From: a virus
Virus record (IMG/VR): IMGVR_UViG_3300023180_000477
Coordinates: 1 to 21,312 of that record
Direction: 5' to 3' (one strand)
Length of the DNA: 21,312 nucleotides
This document shows positions 584-19,950 of the stretch, piece after piece (within the stretch, counting starts at the first letter, position 1; each line of letters begins with the position of its first letter). The notes under the pieces were generated by a model. That model did no database searches. It saw only the letters and a program-made list of their open reading frames with translations, and was not told the origin of the DNA. Made by a program: the position numbers and the translations under genes.

Positions 584-945
584 TCAACTATCTCCGGTCT
601 AATTATAAGACAAAAATCATCATCAAATTCGCCATTACTTACTTCTGTTATACTACTATTTGCAACTAAACTTTGTAAAAAACAAGGCTTGTGTTGCGGG
701 ACGTGATATGTATCACCTTCTTTTATTTCAGATTGATAAATTTTACCGTCTGATGTGTCTATCCATTTGTATAAAAACTTGCCACTATTTACAAACCAAG
801 TTTTATCTTTTTGTTTATGAAAAAAGAACCCTGTTTTTTTATTTGCTTCTTGAAATACTAAAAGTTTACCACAGTAATTTTGGGAATTTGTCCATAAGAT
901 TTCAAATCCCCAATCTTGCTTTTTTACATTATTTTGTTTATTCAT
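580..945 (-). CDS. Cupin, mannose-6-phosphate-isomerase type II-like, degenerate metal site
   Basis: This 121-aa single-domain protein follows the pattern of the small mannose-6-phosphate-isomerase-like cupins: WGFEILWTN at the start, YCGKLLVFQ, a KxKDKTWFVNSGK strand, EGDTYHVPQHKP and a final EVS...DDDF. The usual metal ligands are mostly gone. The family H-x-H pair is F41-x-H43, the following Glu is K48, and the late His of the P-x-x-x-P-H motif is C88. The fold is therefore clear but sugar-phosphate isomerase activity is doubtful; a binding or regulatory role is as likely. It starts one base inside the stop of the NUDIX gene (TAATG) and ends in an ATGA overlap with the 86-aa gene, so it is expressed as part of the leftward operon. 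Confidence 0.65.
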   Translation of the reverse strand: MNKQNNVKKQDWGFEILWTNSQNYCGKLLVFQEANKKTGFFFHKQKDKTWFVNSGKFLYKWIDTSDGKIYQSEIKEGDTYHVPQHKPCFLQSLVANSSITEVSNGEFDDDFCLIIRPEIVE

Positions 946-1373
946 TACAGTAACTCTATAAGTTTAAAGACAGTTTCAAGTTTGGTTTGATTTGTTTTGT
1001 TTGTAAGTGTGTTTCTTAAACCATGATGCAAAGGTTTTGGCCATTTAGTAAATGTAACCCATGCATACCCGTCATGTTCTTTATTTAATTTAGGTATAAA
1101 TTCCTGTTCTACCACGCATAGATATGTATGGAAATGAAATTTACTGTCATTAGAAATAAACGTTTCTAACGGTATAGTTTTTTTAATATCTATTTTACCT
1201 ATTTCTTCAGAAATTTCACGCTTGAGACTCTCCCAAGGAGTTTCCTTATCCTCAGCAGTACCACCAACTAAACCCCAAAGATTGCTTTGTTTTCCCTGCG
1301 TACGATGTAAAAAGAGAAAACGTTTAGTATCTAGAGTGTAAAATAATGCTCCGCTGCAAATAATATTATTCAT
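945..1373 (-). CDS. NUDIX hydrolase
   Basis: The 142-aa protein contains a nearly complete Nudix box: G38-x5-E44-x7-R52-E53-I54-S55-E56-E57-I58-G59, with Lys at the last hydrophobic position. These residues bind the divalent metal and carry out hydrolysis of a nucleoside diphosphate linked to another moiety. The rest matches a minimal single Nudix domain (WGLVGG before the box). The substrate cannot be read from the sequence; nucleotide-sugar, dinucleotide or oxidised-nucleotide hydrolysis are all possible. It begins 13 bases after the gp15 stop with no clear Shine-Dalgarno and ends in a TAATG overlap with the cupin gene. It looks like an accessory metabolic gene riding downstream of structural genes. 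Confidence 0.85.
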   Translation of the reverse strand: MNNIICSGALFYTLDTKRFLFLHRTQGKQSNLWGLVGGTAEDKETPWESLKREISEEIGKIDIKKTIPLETFISNDSKFHFHTYLCVVEQEFIPKLNKEHDGYAWVTFTKWPKPLHHGLRNTLTNKTNQTKLETVFKLIELL

Positions 1374-1386
1374 ACTAGTAATTATA

Positions 1387-2859
1387 CTAATACTTTAGAC
1401 GCCATGCTCCATGTGGATATTCCCCTTCAAACGAAAGAATCCACTCTCCTTCATCCCATTTGTATTGAATACCAGTATTTAAATTAGTTGTGTAAATGTT
1501 ATCAGTTGCTTCACTTGCGTCAAAAACTACATGCCATTTAGATCCATCCCACTCTACAATATCATTTTCACCAGCAATAAAGTCAGTACCATCAGCATTT
1601 TTCCAATCATCAGCGCCGTCAACATTTATAGAATCACCTATGCCTGTGCCTAGCAACAATATTCTAGTCCCAGTAGTCCTTAGAGATACAGGACTTGTTT
1701 TTGTAGGATCTATTATATAACTAATTTTATTTGCATCACCCGTTGGTCCTGTTATAATAGTATCACTAGGAATAGTATCACTGTCCCAATTTATAATTAA
1801 TTCACTTGGATCTGTTGCATTAATTGCAACTGTACCTGCTATTTCGTTTTCTACATCTTTTCTCTTAAGTCTTAATTCTGTCAATCCTGGTTCAAATATA
1901 TCAGGGAACGCTTCGACATATGCTTCCCAGGAAACACTACCCACAACACCGCGTCTAATAATTTTAGCAGTATTGGTCATTACAAGCAATCCATAATCTT
2001 TGTAGGTATTACTAACAACTGTTGTTGCATCTTCTTTGAATACATCTTTTTTGTTTTTTGTTGTTGCTATAGTACCTGTTGGCGTTATAGAAACTGTGGT
2101 TTTTACATCAGCGTTAGGAACTGCTGCACCTTCACCTGCACTACTTAATGCTCCTTGCGGCCTACTTAGATCTAATTCTATTGTACCTTTGGTTTCGTCG
2201 TAAATGCTTTGAACAATGGCTTGCACTACTCCTAGTCGTTTTACTTTGGTAGGTGGTGATATGAAAATAGGAGTTTTGAACCCCATAGTTGCAACATCTA
2301 TTTCACTTTCAGTTCCTATCGGAATAGATCTTGAACTAAAATTAATTGTGTCAAGATTTACCACACTAAGACTGGTCCAGTCTACATAATTATCTGTTGT
2401 TTGTATTTCCAAACTAGGATTAAACAGCATCAAAATTTGTTCCATTAATTGCAATTTTTGATCTGTATTTGAAGTCCACATATCAACGTTTACACTTAAA
2501 GTGTAAGGTGTAGGCATAAGTCTTTCAACTGTGTAGTTCTTACCTTGTGTGTTTAGATATTCATTACCATCTTCATCATAGGCACGTTCTCTTATGTTTA
2601 ATTTGTTAACATAACTTGCATCACTTAATCGTGTTGTATCCATTTCTAATCCTGTGATGTATACAGCCATTCTAGGAGCACTAGGAATTTTATTTTCGGA
2701 ATTATCTCTTAGTATATGACCAACTTGTCGTGTAATATCTCCATACATAACAGGAACTTGTGTTAAATTTCCACTTCCGTCTTTGTAAGAAAAATTACTC
2801 ATTAATCTGACTATTTGAGTTATATATCTTCTTATTTGTCCGTCATAAAAATGTTGCAT
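1387..2859 (-). CDS. 15: Tail sheath stabilizer / tail completion protein gp15
   Basis: The N-terminus MQHFYDGQIRRYITQ resembles T4 gp15 (YFYNSSFRRYATL) and is typical of marine T4-like gp15. The region around residues 110-215 (PTPYTLSVNVDMWTS, EQILMLFNPSLE, FISPPTKVKR) fits the conserved core. T4 gp15 forms the hexameric ring that caps the tail tube and sheath and joins the tail to the neck. At 490 aa it is much longer than T4 gp15 (272 aa), and the excess is a C-terminal extension. The last 67 residues hold two short W/Y-rich units (ENDIVEWDGSKW and IQYKWDEGEW) like ones in gp14 and gp18 here. The ATG overlaps the gp14 stop (TAATG), giving translational coupling of the two connector proteins. 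Confidence 0.88.
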   Translation of the reverse strand: MQHFYDGQIRRYITQIVRLMSNFSYKDGSGNLTQVPVMYGDITRQVGHILRDNSENKIPSAPRMAVYITGLEMDTTRLSDASYVNKLNIRERAYDEDGNEYLNTQGKNYTVERLMPTPYTLSVNVDMWTSNTDQKLQLMEQILMLFNPSLEIQTTDNYVDWTSLSVVNLDTINFSSRSIPIGTESEIDVATMGFKTPIFISPPTKVKRLGVVQAIVQSIYDETKGTIELDLSRPQGALSSAGEGAAVPNADVKTTVSITPTGTIATTKNKKDVFKEDATTVVSNTYKDYGLLVMTNTAKIIRRGVVGSVSWEAYVEAFPDIFEPGLTELRLKRKDVENEIAGTVAINATDPSELIINWDSDTIPSDTIITGPTGDANKISYIIDPTKTSPVSLRTTGTRILLLGTGIGDSINVDGADDWKNADGTDFIAGENDIVEWDGSKWHVVFDASEATDNIYTTNLNTGIQYKWDEGEWILSFEGEYPHGAWRLKY

Positions 2860-4022
2860 TAGTTATCTGCCTTAGGTCTAAGTGCTTTTGATAAACTCTG
2901 TCTTTCTTCAACAACCTCACCACCAATCGTGTCTGTATTTGTGTTGTTTACAAATGTTCCTTTTTGGTGTGATCTTGTGTCAGTGTTTGTCAATGTCATG
3001 CGTACTGAATCTTCTTGTTTAACCCAACGTCTACCGTCATATCTAAATAATCTATTTGGCATAAAATCTGTCCTTAAGAAGAAATCTCCTTCTGCACTGC
3101 CTGAAGGAAATCCTATACCGTGTCCAAATACTTCACCATTGCTAGGAATACCATCACCTAGCAAGTACCCTTGATAACCTTCTCTTTCAGGTGTTTGCAT
3201 AACCCTGTCTGCAAGTTCGTTCTGTGTACTAGCATCTAAGTCAGTTGTATCTGTAGTTACAAGTTCAACTTCACCGTTATCGTCTGTTTGTAGTGTGAAG
3301 AAATGACTTGTGTCATAGCCAGATTTGGCTGCATCGGCTTCTGCTTGTTGCACAACAGCGTTATTAATTTGCATTTCTTTTTCATATGTTGATAAAAGAT
3401 CTCGCAATGTTCCACTACCTGGATTATCCTCTTCCATAGGTAAATCTAATATTTCTTTGAATTCTTGACTATCTACTATTTGCTTTAATTTAATTCTATA
3501 CAAGTGCGGATACCAAGTAGGGCTAAATCCTTCTGCGGCTCTGTTTACGTCTTCTACAACGTAATACCTTTTAAGAGCTACACTGTAGTCATTTAGAGCA
3601 TATTCATCTTTAAGATGCGGTAACTCTATAACATCGCCTGGCATTATTTTTCTACCAAGAGTTTTTACACTTGAATTTATATGAATGGTCATAAACAGTG
3701 TATCATTAGATAAGAACAATCCAAACTGACTCATATTAAAGTCTATATCTTGTACATTGTAAATACCACGCATTGTGTAGATATCTGGATCGTATTTTCG
3801 ATCTCTGTTTTCCATAAACAACATATCTTGTATGTTAGTTTCTTTAACAGCATCATAACGAGGCTGATCTGCTGTAGCATCAGCTTCATTTGGATTTTTC
3901 GGACCCAAATATTTGTGAACAAAGACGTCTGTGCCACCCACAGTGAACATCTCATAGATCCGTTTGTCTATGAATTCGTAATCTTTGCCTTTCTCTGGTT
4001 TGTATAAAGATAATCTTGGCAT
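2859..4022 (-). CDS. 14: Neck protein gp14
   Basis: The 387-aa product starting MPRLSLYKPEKGKDYEF is the form found next to gp15 in marine T4-like phages. The stretch from GIYNVQDIDF through FGLFLSNDTLFMTIH to PGDVIELP and the WYPHLYRIKL segment matches the layout of T4 gp14 (FGMQVQDEVTLSI, EGDLIYFP). gp13 and gp14 complete the head-tail neck. The identification rests on this similarity and on synteny with gp15 and gp13; T4 gp14 is shorter (256 aa). I chose the ATG at 4022. Longer frames to 4076 would cross the divergent promoters, and this ATG lies 5 bases after a late-promoter box. Residues about 308-334 (EGDFFLRTDFMPNRLFRYDG, then RRWVK) form a W/Y-rich module shared with gp15 and gp18. 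There is no Shine-Dalgarno sequence. Confidence 0.68.
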   Translation of the reverse strand: MPRLSLYKPEKGKDYEFIDKRIYEMFTVGGTDVFVHKYLGPKNPNEADATADQPRYDAVKETNIQDMLFMENRDRKYDPDIYTMRGIYNVQDIDFNMSQFGLFLSNDTLFMTIHINSSVKTLGRKIMPGDVIELPHLKDEYALNDYSVALKRYYVVEDVNRAAEGFSPTWYPHLYRIKLKQIVDSQEFKEILDLPMEEDNPGSGTLRDLLSTYEKEMQINNAVVQQAEADAAKSGYDTSHFFTLQTDDNGEVELVTTDTTDLDASTQNELADRVMQTPEREGYQGYLLGDGIPSNGEVFGHGIGFPSGSAEGDFFLRTDFMPNRLFRYDGRRWVKQEDSVRMTLTNTDTRSHQKGTFVNNTNTDTIGGEVVEERQSLSKALRPKADN

Positions 4023-4027
4023 ATACA

Positions 4028-4035
4028 TATTTATC
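4028..4035 (-). promoter_or_regulatory. T4-type late promoter GATAAATA for gp14 operon
   Basis: Read on the minus strand the box is GATAAATA followed by TGTAT and the gp14 ATG. In T4 late promoters the octamer spans about -13 to -6, which would put +1 on the A of the ATG at 4022 and give a leaderless mRNA. It forms one arm of a perfect inverted repeat with the gp13 promoter. Confidence 0.7.
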
Positions 4036-4039
4036 GAAC

Positions 4040-4047
4040 GATAAATA
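4040..4047 (+). promoter_or_regulatory. T4-type late promoter GATAAATA for gp13
   Basis: GATAAATACTTGTGGAG precedes gp13. By T4 geometry transcription starts near 4053, so the mRNA would begin directly with the Shine-Dalgarno GGAG (4053-4056), 10 bases before the ATG. It faces the gp14 promoter with only four bases between the two boxes. Confidence 0.72.
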
Positions 4048-4066
4048 CTTGTGGAGAACTTTTCGT

Positions 4067-4825
4067 ATGGCAACACTTACAACTAAAAAACAAGAAATAT
4101 TTGACTATGTTAATGCTATGTTAGGCGGAGGTATGGTTGATGTTGAACTTGATCCAGTACACTACGAAACAGCATTAGGAAAAGCACTGGCAAGATTTCG
4201 TCAAAGATCAGACAATTCAGTAGAAGAAAGTTACTTCTTTATGCCTACTGTTATTGATCAAAATGAATATACACTACCAAATGAAATAGTTGAAGTTCGT
4301 AGAATATTTCGCAGATCAATTGGATCACGCACTGGCGGAGGAGATGGTGGTACACTGTTTGAACCGTTTAACCTTGCATACACAAACACATATTTGTTAG
4401 CCAGTTCTAACATGGGCGGACTTGCTACATACGATTTCTTCTCACAATACCAAGAATTAGTAGGTAGAATGTTTGGATCATTTATTGAATTTAAATGGAA
4501 TACAGCAAACAAAAAATTAACAATATTACAGCGTTCACGTACAGAAGAAACGCTACTACTTTTATGCTATAACTACAGACCAGATGAGCAATTACTAGAT
4601 GATTATCTTGCAAAGCAATGGATAAAAGATTACACTGTTGCTACTTGTAAATATATGCTGGGTGAAGCACGTAGTAAATTTGCTACTATTGCAGGCCCAC
4701 AAGGTGGAGGCCAATTAAACGGCGATGCACTAAAAGCAGAGGCACAAGCAGAAATGGAAAAACTTGAACAAGAAGTCAGCACTGCTGTTCCAGGCGGCGT
4801 TGGCTACGGATTTACCATAGGATAA
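4067..4825 (+). CDS. 13: Neck protein gp13
   Basis: The 252-aa product (MATLTTKKQEIFDYVNAMLG, then VDVELDPVHYETALGKALARFRQRS and NSVEESYFFM) has the N-terminal signature of marine T4-like gp13. gp13 forms the portal-proximal neck ring that seals the packaged head and receives the tail. The conserved early helix with RxRxS and the Arg-rich EVRRIFRRS segment are visible, and a Gly-rich tail ends the protein. An upstream in-frame ATG at 4016 would overlap gp14 and its promoter. The ATG at 4067 has GGAG at a proper distance and a late promoter in front, so it is preferred. It is transcribed divergently from gp14-gp15 and its stop overlaps the next ATG (TAATG). Confidence 0.85.
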   Translation: MATLTTKKQEIFDYVNAMLGGGMVDVELDPVHYETALGKALARFRQRSDNSVEESYFFMPTVIDQNEYTLPNEIVEVRRIFRRSIGSRTGGGDGGTLFEPFNLAYTNTYLLASSNMGGLATYDFFSQYQELVGRMFGSFIEFKWNTANKKLTILQRSRTEETLLLLCYNYRPDEQLLDDYLAKQWIKDYTVATCKYMLGEARSKFATIAGPQGGGQLNGDALKAEAQAEMEKLEQEVSTAVPGGVGYGFTIG

Positions 4826-10218: not shown

Positions 10219-10226
10219 GATAAATA
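10219..10226 (+). promoter_or_regulatory. Late promoter GATAAATA, 5 nt before an ATG
   Basis: GATAAATA, then TTAGT, then the ATG at 10232. T4 spacing puts +1 on the ATG. There is no Shine-Dalgarno sequence and the terminator just upstream blocks read-through, so the gene should depend on this promoter. Confidence 0.7.
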
Positions 10227-10231
10227 TTAGT

Positions 10232-11578
10232 ATGGGAAAGTTCACAGGTTTTTTAGACAACTTAGCAAGAGGCGCTTTATCTCCAAAAGGTAACCTTGGA
10301 GACTTCCGTCACGCCAGTAGAACATTTGTTGACGATGCATTTAGGTTAGCTCCTAAATCTAAATTTCTTTATCATGTTCACTTTCAGTTTAATCCAGTTG
10401 CATTTGACAATATTAAAGAACTGGGCGAGAAACACAAGCAAGAAATAGGACTTTTAGTAAAAGCAGCCGATTTACCAAAATATTCAGCAACTGTTGATAC
10501 CAAAAAGAAATACAATAGAGTTAAACATGTTCAAACTAGTATTAGTTATGATCCAGTTAATATTACATTTCATGATGATAACTTTGGCGTAACCACAGCA
10601 ATTCTAGAAGCATACTATAGATATTATTTTGCAGACGGTAACTATGGAAGTTATCCTGGTGCATATAACAAAACCTATACAAGAGCAACAGCAAATGATC
10701 CTGTTAACACTGAACTAAGGAGATTTGCTGCACAAGAAAAAGCACAACCTGGTGATAACACATATCTTGGAACTAACTATAACAAGTATGCATATGGTTT
10801 AGATAACAATGTAACAGTACCATTTATTAATAATATTCAAATTAGTCAATTGAGTAGAAAGACTTATACTACATATACACTTGTAAATCCAATTATAACT
10901 AATTGGTCACATGACAATGTAGATGCAAGTGATGGTTCAGGTGTAATGGAAAATAGTATTACTGTAGCATATGAAGCAGTTTGGTATGATAGAGGGTCTG
11001 TTGAAGCCGGTGCAAATGGTAATCCTGTCGGATTTGGAGATCCTTCACACTACGACACTACACCTAGTCCTGGCAGTTTGTTAGGTGGAGGCCAACTAGG
11101 CTTAGGTGGAATATTTGGTGCAGGTATAGATTTGTACGATTACATTACAAAAGGTGGAGGTAAATTTAACAATCCTTTTGCAGCAGGATTAGCGGCTGCA
11201 AATCTAATTGGTAACGTGAGAAATCTCAGCAAAGAAGGCTTACGAGAAGAAGGATTTAGTTTACTTAAAGGAGCAATTGGAGCAGCGGCAGGTGTAGATG
11301 TTAGCGGAGTTAGCAACACAGTATTTCCAAAGAATGGAGGTAGTGGCGGTGCAACTGATTTAATTTTAGGTACAGCCGCAATCGCAGGACTATCTGCTTT
11401 AAGCAGTGTAAATAGAAACAGCAGTGCAGCTGCTATCGAAAGTGCGGCAAAGCAAGCATTTGGAAAAGATTTTCAATCTCAAGGAAATGCAGGTGGAGTC
11501 AACGAAAGAAATGCAGCTTATGAAGCATTACCAGATAGTCAAAAGCAAAATTACAGGAATCAAGTAACAGGTACATAA
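10232..11578 (+). CDS. Tail-tube-related baseplate protein, gp54-like candidate
   Basis: The first ~250 residues look like a tube-type beta domain: FLYHVHFQFNP, GLLVKAADLPKYSA, SYDPVNITFHDDN, then INNIQISQLSR and SITVAYEAVWYD near residue 245. T4 gp54 (tail tube initiator) has the same order of elements (VKMPENRL..., LDPLVISFRMD, IPISVSAPELSYD, FDVTFAYRV). I therefore suggest a gp54-type protein that nucleates the tube on the baseplate; gp48-type or another tube-like protein is possible. The C-terminal ~190 residues are Gly/Ala-rich and hydrophobic (GQLGLGGIFGAG, LLKGAIGAAAGVDV) with no counterpart in T4 gp54. It follows gp19 after a terminator, has a late promoter 5 bases from the ATG, and the next gene starts one base after its stop. 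Confidence 0.55.
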   Translation: MGKFTGFLDNLARGALSPKGNLGDFRHASRTFVDDAFRLAPKSKFLYHVHFQFNPVAFDNIKELGEKHKQEIGLLVKAADLPKYSATVDTKKKYNRVKHVQTSISYDPVNITFHDDNFGVTTAILEAYYRYYFADGNYGSYPGAYNKTYTRATANDPVNTELRRFAAQEKAQPGDNTYLGTNYNKYAYGLDNNVTVPFINNIQISQLSRKTYTTYTLVNPIITNWSHDNVDASDGSGVMENSITVAYEAVWYDRGSVEAGANGNPVGFGDPSHYDTTPSPGSLLGGGQLGLGGIFGAGIDLYDYITKGGGKFNNPFAAGLAAANLIGNVRNLSKEGLREEGFSLLKGAIGAAAGVDVSGVSNTVFPKNGGSGGATDLILGTAAIAGLSALSSVNRNSSAAAIESAAKQAFGKDFQSQGNAGGVNERNAAYEALPDSQKQNYRNQVTGT

Positions 11579-12387: not shown

Positions 12388-13023
12388 ATGACCTGTACAA
12401 TTCAGTCTCCTATAAAAGCAACCTTTTTACATAATCCCAAAGCAGCAGGAATTAGTATCAGCCGTTGGTTAGAAAGAAATGTCGCCGGAAAAATTATTCA
12501 ACCTAAGCATGCTATCTATAAAGATTTAAAAAATCAAATAGACTTAGGATATACATTTTGTGTTGTTCGTAACCCTTGGGATGTAATTGTAAGCAGATAC
12601 GAATTTATCCTTGCTCGTACAAAAAAAGTCATAGAGTATCTAAAAGATCCGCCGTATGATACACCAGTTGAAATTGAGATGGGATTGTTGTCTGGTTATT
12701 TAAATGATGATAATTTTAATATTGAAACACAAACAAAAATTTTACAAAAGTTAGAAAAAGGTTTTAAAGAGTTTTGTATAGATCATGACATAATTAATCA
12801 AACTGATTTTTCTAACGGATGTGATTATGTTATGAGATATGAAAATTTAGTAGAAGATTTTAAAATTATCCAACAAAAATTAAAATGCAATAAAGATCTA
12901 ATGTGCTTAAACAAGACTGCAAACAAAAAAAATTACAAAGATTATTACAAAGATTTTGAGTGTATTGAAATAATAGCTGAAAAGTATCAAACCGACATAG
13001 AAACCTTAGGATATAGTTATTAA
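12388..13023 (+). CDS. Sulfotransferase-family protein
   Basis: Two PAPS-binding signatures are visible. TFLHNPKAAGISISRWLE (residues 12-29) is the 5'-phosphosulfate loop, with K18. YTFCVVRNPWDVIVSRYEF (55-73) is the 3'-phosphate motif, with R61 and S69. The family transfers sulfate from PAPS to carbohydrate or other hydroxyl acceptors; the acceptor here is unknown. At 211 aa it is a compact member, and the second half is Lys/Asn/Asp-rich and less typical. Its composition is clearly more AT-rich than the flanking head and packaging genes. It sits between gp4 and gp16 with no promoter of its own, three bases after gp4. That fits an acquired accessory gene, perhaps for modifying host surface or virion glycans (inference). 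Confidence 0.7.
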   Translation: MTCTIQSPIKATFLHNPKAAGISISRWLERNVAGKIIQPKHAIYKDLKNQIDLGYTFCVVRNPWDVIVSRYEFILARTKKVIEYLKDPPYDTPVEIEMGLLSGYLNDDNFNIETQTKILQKLEKGFKEFCIDHDIINQTDFSNGCDYVMRYENLVEDFKIIQQKLKCNKDLMCLNKTANKKNYKDYYKDFECIEIIAEKYQTDIETLGYSY

Positions 13024-16159: not shown

Positions 16160-17740
16160 ATGAGTAAAAGTTTAGATGGTGTTCTTACCAAGAAAGCAAA
16201 TCAACGAGAAACCTATACTGAAGAACAGATCAATGATCTAATGCAGTGTATGAATCCTGACGCAGGTTATCTATATTTTGCAGAAAAATTTGCATACATA
16301 CAACATCCTGTCAAGGGCAAACTTTTATTCGATCCTTTCACATATCAAGAACGACTGTTAAAAAGTTATCATAATTATAGATTTAATATTAATATGTTAC
16401 CACGCCAAACAGGAAAAACTACCTGTGCGGCAATATATTTGCTTTGGTATGCTATGTTTAATCCAGATCAAACTGTGCTGATTGCTGCACACAAGTACAC
16501 AGGCGCACAAGAAATTATGCAACGAGTAAGATATGCATACGAACTATGTCCTGATCATATACGAGCAGGTGTTGTAAACTACAACAAAGGATCTATGGAA
16601 TTTGAAAATGGCAGTAGAATAGTAAGTGCAACAACAACAGGCAATACAGGACGTGGTATGTCCATATCACTATTATACTGTGACGAGTTTGCATTTGTTA
16701 GTCCTACTATTGCAGATGAATTTTGGACTTCAATATCACCTACACTAGCAACAGGTGGTCGTGCTATTATTACTTCAACACCTAACTCAGATGAAGATAC
16801 ATTTGCTGTGATTTGGAAACAAGCAGAACAAAAATATGATGAACACGGAAATGAACAAGACGTTGGTGTAAATGGTTTTCATTCTTTTACCTGTCATTGG
16901 AGTGAACATCCTGATAGAGATGAAAAGTGGAAAGAAGAAGAACTTGGTCGTATAGGTGAAGAACGTTTCCGCCGTGAATACGAATGTGAGTTCTTGGTAT
17001 TTGATGAAACACTTATAAATGCTATAAAACTTGCATCACTTGAACCAACTTCACCTTTAATGAACATGGGTCAAACACGTTGGTATCAAAAATTACAAAA
17101 AGACAAAACTTATATTATAGCACTTGATCCTTCAATGGGTACAGGAGGCGACTATGCCGCTATACAGGTATTTGAACTGCCTACATACAAACAGGTAGCA
17201 GAGTGGCGTCACAATACAACACCTATTACAGGACAAATACGTATCCTTGCCGACATATGTAATCATATTGCAAGCGAAACACAAAACCCTCAAGGCATAT
17301 ATTGGAGTGTTGAAAACAATGCGATTGGCGAAGCTGCATTAATTGTTATTAACGACTTTGGTGAAGAAAACATACCGGGATTATTTGTTAGTGAACCTAT
17401 GCGCAAAGGACATGTACGCAAGTTCCGCAAAGGGTTTAATACAACTCATTCAACAAAAATCAGTGCTTGCAGTAGATTAAAAACTATGATCGAAAATGAC
17501 AAGATGCAGATCTATTCAGGTGCTATGATAAGTGAACTCAAAGGATTTGTAGCAACAGGCAGTACATACAAAGCAAAAGTAGGAGAAACTGACGATTTAA
17601 TTAGTGCTACACTACTTGTGATTAGAATAATGAGTGTGTTGAGAGATTGGGATCCTAGGGTGTACAATACATTCAAAAGCATGGAATCAGAGGAAGATTA
17701 TGAACCACCAATGCCTATCTTCATTAGCACCAACTATTGA
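16160..17740 (+). CDS. 17: Terminase large subunit gp17 (ATPase-nuclease)
   Basis: The DNA-packaging motor and headful nuclease. ATPase: Walker A L80-PRQTGKTT88, Walker B with acid pair LLYCDEF (D175, E176) and coupling motif ITSTPNS near 213. Nuclease (RNase H-like): D323 in ALDPSMGTGGD, E385 in VENNAIGE and D478/D479 in TDDLISATLL, equivalent to the T4 D401/E458/D542 set. At 526 aa it is shorter than T4 gp17 (610 aa), mainly at the N-terminus, which starts close to the adenine-binding YQERLL segment. The gene is insulated by a terminator upstream, has its own late promoter and lacks a Shine-Dalgarno. Its stop TGA lies within the promoter of the next gene. Confidence 0.95.
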   Translation: MSKSLDGVLTKKANQRETYTEEQINDLMQCMNPDAGYLYFAEKFAYIQHPVKGKLLFDPFTYQERLLKSYHNYRFNINMLPRQTGKTTCAAIYLLWYAMFNPDQTVLIAAHKYTGAQEIMQRVRYAYELCPDHIRAGVVNYNKGSMEFENGSRIVSATTTGNTGRGMSISLLYCDEFAFVSPTIADEFWTSISPTLATGGRAIITSTPNSDEDTFAVIWKQAEQKYDEHGNEQDVGVNGFHSFTCHWSEHPDRDEKWKEEELGRIGEERFRREYECEFLVFDETLINAIKLASLEPTSPLMNMGQTRWYQKLQKDKTYIIALDPSMGTGGDYAAIQVFELPTYKQVAEWRHNTTPITGQIRILADICNHIASETQNPQGIYWSVENNAIGEAALIVINDFGEENIPGLFVSEPMRKGHVRKFRKGFNTTHSTKISACSRLKTMIENDKMQIYSGAMISELKGFVATGSTYKAKVGETDDLISATLLVIRIMSVLRDWDPRVYNTFKSMESEEDYEPPMPIFISTNY

Positions 17741-17746
17741 TAAATA
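17739..17746 (+). promoter_or_regulatory. Late promoter GATAAATA, 5 nt before an ATG
   Basis: The gp17 stop codon TGA is part of TGATAAATA; CTAAT then leads to the ATG at 17752. The spacing is identical to those of gp14, the gp54-like gene and gp17, and there is no Shine-Dalgarno. Confidence 0.7.
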
Positions 17747-17751
17747 CTAAT

Positions 17752-19950
17752 ATGAAAAACTTGGATTTAATAGGCGAAGAGCTGTTTAACAAAATTAGAG
17801 GAAGATTCCCTTCGGTTACTATAGGTAATCAAGAGGGAGTTGTTACTAATGTGCCATCCGAAGCACGTTTCTTTGACTTTGACTTCAAAGAAGGTGATAA
17901 CAACCTAGGCAAAGTCAGCGTAAGTGTTGATGATCAAAGCCTAAGTGTTATGTACAGCAACAATTTTGTTGAAGGACAAGACGCATTTACAAGAGAAAAA
18001 TGGTATGGCTTTTTAAAAGAACTACGTTACTTTGCAAAGAAAAGACTATTAAATTTTGACACAAGAGATATTACTAAATCAAATCTCAACCGCAGAGATT
18101 ATAAATTTTTAGCGAATAATACTGGAGACACAACAATGAGCGAATCAAAGATGTATGGTACAAGCAAGACCAGTTATCAGGATGTTGGCAGTGCAAGACT
18201 TGCACTTAGACACAGCAAGCCTGTCAATCAAGAACTTGCACATGGTAGAACACAACATGTAGAAGCAATCTACATAGAAAGTGATCAAGGAGAAAGATTT
18301 AAATATCCTTACAGACATTTGAATGGTGCAAGAGCAATGGCACGTCACGTAAGCGAAGGCGGTAATGCTTATGATGACTTCGGCAAATACATTGTTAGTC
18401 TTTCAGAAGAATTAAACAAACTACGTAAATTCAAAAATTACATGGGTCGCTCAAGTGTAATGGCTGAAGGTTTACAAGGTTACATGGATGTGGTATATGA
18501 AAGAATTGATACAGTAAAGAAAACTGTTGAACAACTACAACGTTCTGCATACTACAAAGAAGCATTTGAAAATTTTGAAGTTACAACTTTAGAAGAAGTT
18601 CCAGAAGATGTTTCAAGTAATTGGATTGATCAACTTACTATTAAACAATTCAATGAAGAATTAAAAGACGTATTTCCTTACATCTATAAATTAGTTAACG
18701 AAAAAACTAAAGCATCGGAGCTAGGACCTGAAGATTTACTAGGTGAGTTTAACATCGGCGACAAGGTTCGCGGCGCACTTGGTATTAACCAGGTAAGACC
18801 TAACGACTTTGTTAAAAGGTCAATTGAAATTTCCGACAGATATTCAGATCTTGTAAAAAACGGAACAGTATCAAATGCTGAAGAAGCTAGTAAACAGTTG
18901 CACGAACTTTATATGGAATTAATCAACATGAGCAGAGAAATCCAAAAAGCAGGCGGCGGCAACAAAACAATGGTAAACGCTCAACAGCAGTTGAAAGTAA
19001 TTAAGGCAGCGGCAAGAGGTGAAGAAAGTGCCGCAAGTAAATTAATAACAGCCGCACAATCCGAACCTAAATTTATAGTAGATTTTGTAAAACAAGACGT
19101 ACAATCTATTGGCGAATCAACAGTTGATGAAGGTCCAATTGACTGGCTCAAAGACAAATATGCTGATTTCAAACAAGGTCGTGAAGACAGCATGAAAGAT
19201 TACAAACAAGATTTACATATTCTAAAAACTGTTCTATCACATGGTGGAATGGACGATTCGACTATCAGACGAATTGAAGATGGATGCCTTAATGATCCTA
19301 GAGTTTGCTTGTACAACACCATTAGGAAAAATGGTATTCCTGCAGGCGATATGGACATGGAAGTTCAACGTATAGGTGATGATCTGAATTCAGGTTGGAC
19401 AACACGAGCAGGAACTACAGATGAAGCAGTTGATGATTTTGATACATTTGAATCATGGGCAGACGAGGTAGTTGAATCAGGCGTAGTTTCAGAAATGCAT
19501 GATGATCCAAAATACAAGGCATGGCTAAAAATTTACAAGAAAAGTCCAGATGCTGCAGAAGCAGTACCAAATCATTCAGAATTTTTAAAATACTATCAAA
19601 GCACACAAGACGACAAGAAAGACACAAAAGAAGGCATGGAAGACGAAGGTCCAAGCATTCCTGTAACAGAATTTGTTCTTTCTTTGTTTGATAGAGAAAA
19701 AGGTACTTTTCCAAAAGGTGAAACAGCAGTGCTAACAGCAATAGAAAAAGATTACGGCGAGCAGTACATTAATCCTGCAAAACAATTTATAGAACGGATC
19801 ATGTCAACATATGAACGCTATGCTGCACCAAAGCAGGATGATATTGTACTAGATGCAGAACCTGAAGGTACTGTAATGGAACCAACAGTAGGACAAGAAG
19901 AAGCAAAAGAATTAGAAGATATGAAGAGAATGGCAGGAATTTCCATTTAA
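17752..19950 (+). CDS. Large probable virion protein, 732 aa, function unknown
   Basis: No known enzymatic domain is seen. The N-terminal ~130 residues look like a mixed alpha/beta domain (RFFDFDFKEGDNN, KVSVSVDDQSLSVMY, EKWYGFLKELRYFAKKR). Residues about 145-225 (QDVGSARLALRHSKPVN, AIYIESDQGERFKYPYRHLN, GARAMARHV) read as a second fold, and the remainder is mostly helical, acidic and low in Cys. The last residues LEDMKRMAGISI resemble the C-terminal motif of several marine T4-like virion proteins. (I)-G-E sites (IGE-E at residue 9, SIGE-S near 464) could be prohead-protease sites. I chose the ATG at 17752; a TTG at 17737 lies upstream of the promoter's predicted start. The position after gp17 under a late promoter supports a structural role (inference). 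Confidence 0.65.
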   Translation: MKNLDLIGEELFNKIRGRFPSVTIGNQEGVVTNVPSEARFFDFDFKEGDNNLGKVSVSVDDQSLSVMYSNNFVEGQDAFTREKWYGFLKELRYFAKKRLLNFDTRDITKSNLNRRDYKFLANNTGDTTMSESKMYGTSKTSYQDVGSARLALRHSKPVNQELAHGRTQHVEAIYIESDQGERFKYPYRHLNGARAMARHVSEGGNAYDDFGKYIVSLSEELNKLRKFKNYMGRSSVMAEGLQGYMDVVYERIDTVKKTVEQLQRSAYYKEAFENFEVTTLEEVPEDVSSNWIDQLTIKQFNEELKDVFPYIYKLVNEKTKASELGPEDLLGEFNIGDKVRGALGINQVRPNDFVKRSIEISDRYSDLVKNGTVSNAEEASKQLHELYMELINMSREIQKAGGGNKTMVNAQQQLKVIKAAARGEESAASKLITAAQSEPKFIVDFVKQDVQSIGESTVDEGPIDWLKDKYADFKQGREDSMKDYKQDLHILKTVLSHGGMDDSTIRRIEDGCLNDPRVCLYNTIRKNGIPAGDMDMEVQRIGDDLNSGWTTRAGTTDEAVDDFDTFESWADEVVESGVVSEMHDDPKYKAWLKIYKKSPDAAEAVPNHSEFLKYYQSTQDDKKDTKEGMEDEGPSIPVTEFVLSLFDREKGTFPKGETAVLTAIEKDYGEQYINPAKQFIERIMSTYERYAAPKQDDIVLDAEPEGTVMEPTVGQEEAKELEDMKRMAGISI

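Follow-up and report, generated by a model that had tools for sequence, protein, structure and literature searches.

Two back-to-back T4-type late promoters with unequal leaders as the probable basis of a palindrome between divergent phage neck genes

The window analyzed here is an entire virus record of 21,312 bases, in which a gp14-like gene on the minus strand and a gp13-like gene on the plus strand diverge from a spacer of 44 bp. The spacer contains an inverted repeat made of two late boxes. The genes and sites on which our analysis is based, including two further late boxes of the window, are as follows.

1387..2859, minus strand: gp15-like tail sheath stabiliser gene, downstream of gp14 (PF16724, E 1.7e-21; phrog_227)
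2859..4022, minus strand: gp14-like neck (head closure) gene, 387 aa, ATG at 4022 (phrog_11591; adjoins gp15; fold match to T4 gp14)
4028..4035, minus strand (read from 4035 to 4028): late box GATAAATA of gp14-gp15, predicted start at 4022; TATTTA kept in 187 of 187 distinct junctions
4036..4039, no strand: spacer GAAC separating the 8-mer boxes, of varying length among relatives
4040..4047, plus strand: late box GATAAATA of gp13, predicted start at 4053
4053..4056, plus strand: GGAG Shine-Dalgarno, the predicted 5' end of the gp13 mRNA, with a 14-nt leader
4067..4825, plus strand: gp13-like head-tail adaptor (Ad2) gene, 252 aa, ATG at 4067 (phrog_211, E 8.8e-35)
10219..10234, plus strand: late box with an ATG exactly 5 nt on (10232), tail-tube-like gene, predicted leaderless
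17739..17754, plus strand: late box with an ATG exactly 5 nt on (17752), ORF after the terminase, predicted leaderless

T4 gp13 matches phrog_211, the same family as the plus-strand gene of the window. The minus-strand gene matched none of the T4 gp14 family profiles searched (PF11649, phrog_679 and phrog_460), and hhalign gave an E of 0.052. A Foldseek search with its predicted structure, however, ranked T4 gp14 neck structures first (9mkb, E 3.2e-05; 9lu5, E 9.2e-05), in both cases at a probability of 1.00 with a model whose mean pLDDT of 59 means only moderate confidence. Because of the phrog_211 match, the adjacency of gp15 and this fold match, the labels gp13 and gp14 stand, the minus-strand gene being considered gp14-like by its modeled fold and its position beside gp13 and gp15, not by sequence profile. 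The first-pass annotation had stated that genes 13, 14 and 15 are co-directional in T4 and that the strand switch is derived; the T4 gene order agrees, all three genes having a single direction, and the switch is real relative to T4. The same switch was found in Agrobacterium phage Atu_ph07 and Sinorhizobium phage Phosso, the jumbo phages that are the nearest cultured phages by protein. The relatives of the window reach several hundred kb and are not classical cyanophages. Cargo genes were also noticed amid the late genes of the window (945-1373, 580-945 and 12388-13023), encoding nudix hydrolase, cysteine-dioxygenase-like and sulfotransferase-like proteins.

Positions 4028-4047 read TATTTATC, GAAC and GATAAATA, with perfect 9-bp arms flanking a central AA, which confirmed the earlier description of one late box per strand, four bases apart, within a perfect 9-bp inverted repeat. 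The 20-mer is single-copy in the window and appeared in none of 100 shuffles. The 9-bp inverted repeat in itself is unremarkable: the window had one with a loop no longer than 4, against 0.35 expected for its composition. A TATTTAT..ATAAATA pair, on the other hand, would occur by chance in a random 60-bp spacer of the same composition with a p of about 3e-5. An inverted repeat located in a spacer could work in RNA, as a terminator or a processing hairpin. But the site lies between gene starts and upstream of both predicted 5' ends, its A+T-rich stem would enclose a 2-nt loop and is followed by no T run, and many relatives are without a usable stem. We rejected this explanation on position and composition, and regard it as improbable in the extreme.

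In seven large relative contigs, 152 of 245 ATAAATA sites (62%) had an ORF ATG 0-40 nt downstream, whereas the figure was 8% for the pool of the 20 other words made by permuting these letters. These data suggest that ATAAATA is a real late-promoter word in the clade. In the window, GATAAATA was found on both strands upstream of structural genes, as expected of a T4-type late promoter box. T4 late promoters (gp55/gp33/gp45) likewise have an 8-bp -10-like box and no -35 element, and they share the box word, TATAAATA in T4 and mostly GATAAATA in the window clade; the late promoter of cyanophages and marine T4-like phages, NATAAATA (S-PM2, Syn9), belongs to the same box family as that of the window (PMC2984593). 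Six of the seven large relative contigs encode a late sigma factor of the gp55 type (phrog_12791 or phrog_234), as do Atu_ph07 and Phosso, the window being a 21-kb fragment for which relatives were used to judge this point. The T4 late system has a gp45 clamp, whereas a family search of the clade for a T4-type clamp (phrog_223), done without a positive control, found none, so that full T4-style activation of the window boxes remains putative.

We then collected 404 loci, in fragments of related aquatic phages, where gp14 and gp13 are direct neighbors and diverge, corresponding to 187 distinct junction sequences. TATTTA ... TAAATA was present in all 187, with both full 7-mers in 156, and the sequence between and around the boxes was far more variable than the boxes themselves. 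Of 13 relative contigs with lengths of 50-268 kb, 12 had the strict pair once only, at the gp14/gp13 junction; the thirteenth carried a one-base variant of it. Atu_ph07 and Phosso retained divergent variant boxes. Thus, no distinct side-by-side junction lacks the late box of either arm, as the first-pass annotation had anticipated. The contrary case that it had named, one box kept and the other lost, was confined to L397/L398, where gp13 no longer adjoins gp14 and the plus box is gone. The genes around the site were repeatedly rearranged among phages, yet the box pair persists. In L347, L348, L349 and L570, a different gene is inserted on the plus side and both boxes are still present. Two close junction relatives (L589 and L590) were binned in a Red Sea Neomarinimicrobiota MAG; these two matches in one MAG, from a scan of bacterial genomes, raised Neomarinimicrobiota as a host, which was set aside because they are probably mis-binned phage contigs.

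A comparable site exists in T4. The sequence TATTTATCATATTTATAAATA at 116441-116461 lies between gene 26 (minus strand, ATG at 116428) and gene 51 (plus strand, ATG at 116479), and its 7-mers are separated by 7 bases, the commonest gap among the relatives of the window. Since this T4 pair exists, back-to-back late promoters are not new as a device, and by analogy the window architecture can be regarded as a variant of one known from T4. The two sites differ in that genes 26 and 51 are baseplate hub genes, whereas those of the window are neck genes, and in that both T4 genes are Shine-Dalgarno-led, whereas gp14 of the window is predicted to be leaderless. No back-to-back pair was found in S-PM2, Syn9 or HTVC008M.

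The expectation that the 4-base gap would be conserved failed. Across the 187 distinct junctions, some 7-mers overlapped and others stood up to 25 bases apart; most gaps were 6-8, that of the window being 6, and a second group clustered at 16-19. On the gp14 tree, gap length changed about 65 times, suggesting that the exact geometry of the site is not essential. Matching inside the arms beyond the 7-mers was 0 in 66 of 155 junctions. Such freedom of spacing, with arms that drift separately, and the equally compact 26/51 site of T4 are what one would expect of two independent late promoters that are close merely through divergence over a compact spacer, the symmetry and any exclusion having no regulatory role. 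This explanation is a serious one, to which we give somewhat less than an even chance, because two features of the junctions do not fit it. First, CG occurs directly upstream of the box in 74% of the gp14-side and 56% of the gp13-side junction boxes, against 6% of the other late boxes. Second, the distances between boxes are clustered rather than spread: in the 187 junctions, the box centers lie near 10, 15, 20.5 and 25.5 bp from one another, and changes are mostly of about 5 or 10-11 bp. About 34 larger jumps in this distance on the tree were mostly of 4-6 or 9-12 bp, with a Rayleigh R of about 0.47 at 5.5 bp, a value obtained by scanning periods after inspection of the data on a single FastTree topology. 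We therefore treat half-turn phasing of the box distance as exploratory.

The perfect 9-bp inverted repeat of the window and the junction-specific symmetry of the CG also bring to mind an operator bound by a regulator in dimeric form, acting instead of or besides the promoters. However, the spacing of the arms shifts by whole and half helical turns, many junctions are asymmetric beyond the boxes, and each arm is the late box that recurs throughout the genome. Moreover, at gaps of at least 12, the CG remains attached to its own box, suggesting that it is a junction-specific extension of the box and not part of a fixed dimer operator. A fixed operator is disfavored by the variable spacing, and we consider an operator function at this palindrome very unlikely.

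We next considered where transcripts from the two boxes would begin. T4 late boxes start at -13 (PMC2988020); therefore, 5 bases separate the box from +1, and an ATG that follows the box after 5 nt is itself +1. The +1 positions given for the clade are carried over from this T4 promoter geometry. Among the 152 box-ORF pairs, the box-to-ATG distance was sharply bimodal: it was at most 8 nt, without room for a Shine-Dalgarno, in 40 pairs, 9-14 nt in only 3, and at least 15 nt in 109, of which 98 had a Shine-Dalgarno. In 25 of the 152 pairs, the distance was exactly 5 nt (p of about 7e-14 against a uniform distribution), a spike that agrees with a T4-type start 6 nt past the end of the box. Three genes of the window fall into this exact-5 class, namely gp14 (4022), the tube-like gene (10232) and the ORF at 17752, whereas gp13 belongs to the class of at least 15 nt. 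The gp14 ATG at 4022 coincides with the predicted +1, and the gp13 mRNA is predicted to begin at the GGAG of 4053-4056. Hence the earlier proposal of a leaderless gp14 mRNA and a gp13 mRNA starting with GGAG is also what the T4 geometry and the distance classes of the clade predict.

The junctions of the relatives divided in the same manner. The gp14 start was 4-8 nt from the box in 160 of the 187 junctions, and the start codon was ATG in all 160. In the remaining 27, the distance was 18-28 nt, almost always with a purine-rich AGGAG-like Shine-Dalgarno, and the start was ATC, ATT or GTG in 22. For instance, led gp14 homologues at L118:9938, L147:5341 and L532-L584 start with ATC or ATT, rare start codons for a structural gene, with a Shine-Dalgarno about 7 nt upstream. 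The association between leader type and gp14 start codon was strong when relatedness was ignored (Fisher 3e-24); on the gp14 tree, leader type changed about 8 times, and the supported independent pairs, 5 to 0 and so all of one direction (p = 0.0625), were too few to be conclusive. A strict AUG when leaderless and a relaxed start when led is as leaderless translation predicts. On the gp13 side, an SD-like motif was present 4-10 nt past the box in 84 of 87 junctions. Taken together, these sequence data lend good support, generally across the clade, to the prediction that gp14 is leaderless and gp13 GGAG-led.

The explanation that we favor, and consider highly likely, is that the palindrome represents two back-to-back T4-type late promoters, one for gp14-gp15 and the other for gp13, which would fire one way at a time and have unequal leaders. 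A late sigma factor of the gp55 type would recognize both minimal boxes, and since nothing beyond the -10-like box is needed for a late promoter, two of them could be placed nearly head to head. The predicted starts at 4022 and 4053 are 31 bp apart, so that a polymerase on one box would cover the other and initiation would occur in one direction at a time; this geometry suggests mutually exclusive occupancy of the two boxes. Such exclusive firing may, as the first-pass annotation proposed, balance gp13 against gp14-gp15. The gp13 mRNA would begin with GGAGAAC... and carry a Shine-Dalgarno, whereas the gp14 mRNA would begin at its own AUG. The shared site would keep the neck genes on one late switch, and we propose that the unequal translation starts may help to set the gp13:gp14 ratio. 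The T4 neck contains more copies of gp13 than of gp14, and a weaker gp14 start would be in keeping with this.

In cells, Warman, Grainger and colleagues have described bidirectional promoters whose -10 elements are symmetric and which give divergent mRNAs (PMC12825309). At the symmetric promoters of E. coli, RNA polymerase occupies a single orientation at any one time; steric competition was seen only at high activity, with little at basal activity, and bidirectional promoters reduce noise (PMC12825309). The small competition at basal activity counts against the exclusion step of our favored explanation. The cellular promoters share or overlap their -10 element, and their starts are commonly 18, 10 or 23 bp apart (PMC12825309). 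The window, in contrast, has separate boxes, a putative late sigma and predicted starts 31 bp apart; a shared or overlapping -10 element with starts 10-23 bp apart is absent from it, although the boxes of a few relatives nearly overlap. The persistence of the box pair among rearranged genes makes the site a clean natural system in which to ask whether face-to-face late promoters compete, assist each other via supercoiling, or ignore each other.

A more elaborate form of the favored explanation would make the site a compact stoichiometry device, in which one-at-a-time firing, a deliberately weak gp14 start, half-turn spacing and a shared leaderless class act together. The weak gp14 start would mostly be the leaderless AUG and, in the leader-bearing side branch, an SD-led AUC or AUU; box distances near half-turn multiples would let the two initiation complexes sense each other; and the exact +1 AUG would represent a leaderless class of late genes that a SAR11 phage also has. 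We regard this combination as rather unlikely.

The predicted leaderless late class is more informative than the architecture of the box pair. In the SAR11 T4-like phage HTVC008M (L253-L260), 8 of 15 late boxes are of the exact-5 class, which predicts a leaderless late class there as well. The class had no site in T4 or Syn9, one site in S-PM2, and none in Atu_ph07 or Phosso with the ATAAATA box. Bacterial leaderless mRNAs, such as those of alphaproteobacteria, resemble the predicted gp14 mRNA in having AUG at the 5' end, no Shine-Dalgarno and a strict ATG; the class described here differs in consisting of phage late genes under a T4-type late box, as predicted from sequence. The literature that we searched contained no report of leaderless late mRNAs in T4-like phages, although one may exist elsewhere. 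The class predicts that a gp14-type 5' end falls at the A of the ATG. It also suggests that abundant aquatic phages have late structural genes whose mRNAs are translated with no Shine-Dalgarno, which would matter for host range, for gene calling and for expression in laboratory hosts. Among the orthologous late genes compared (G001-G007), members of the same family could be either leaderless, by prediction, or Shine-Dalgarno-led; in one family of 379-454 aa, the distances were 5, 6, 19 and 30.
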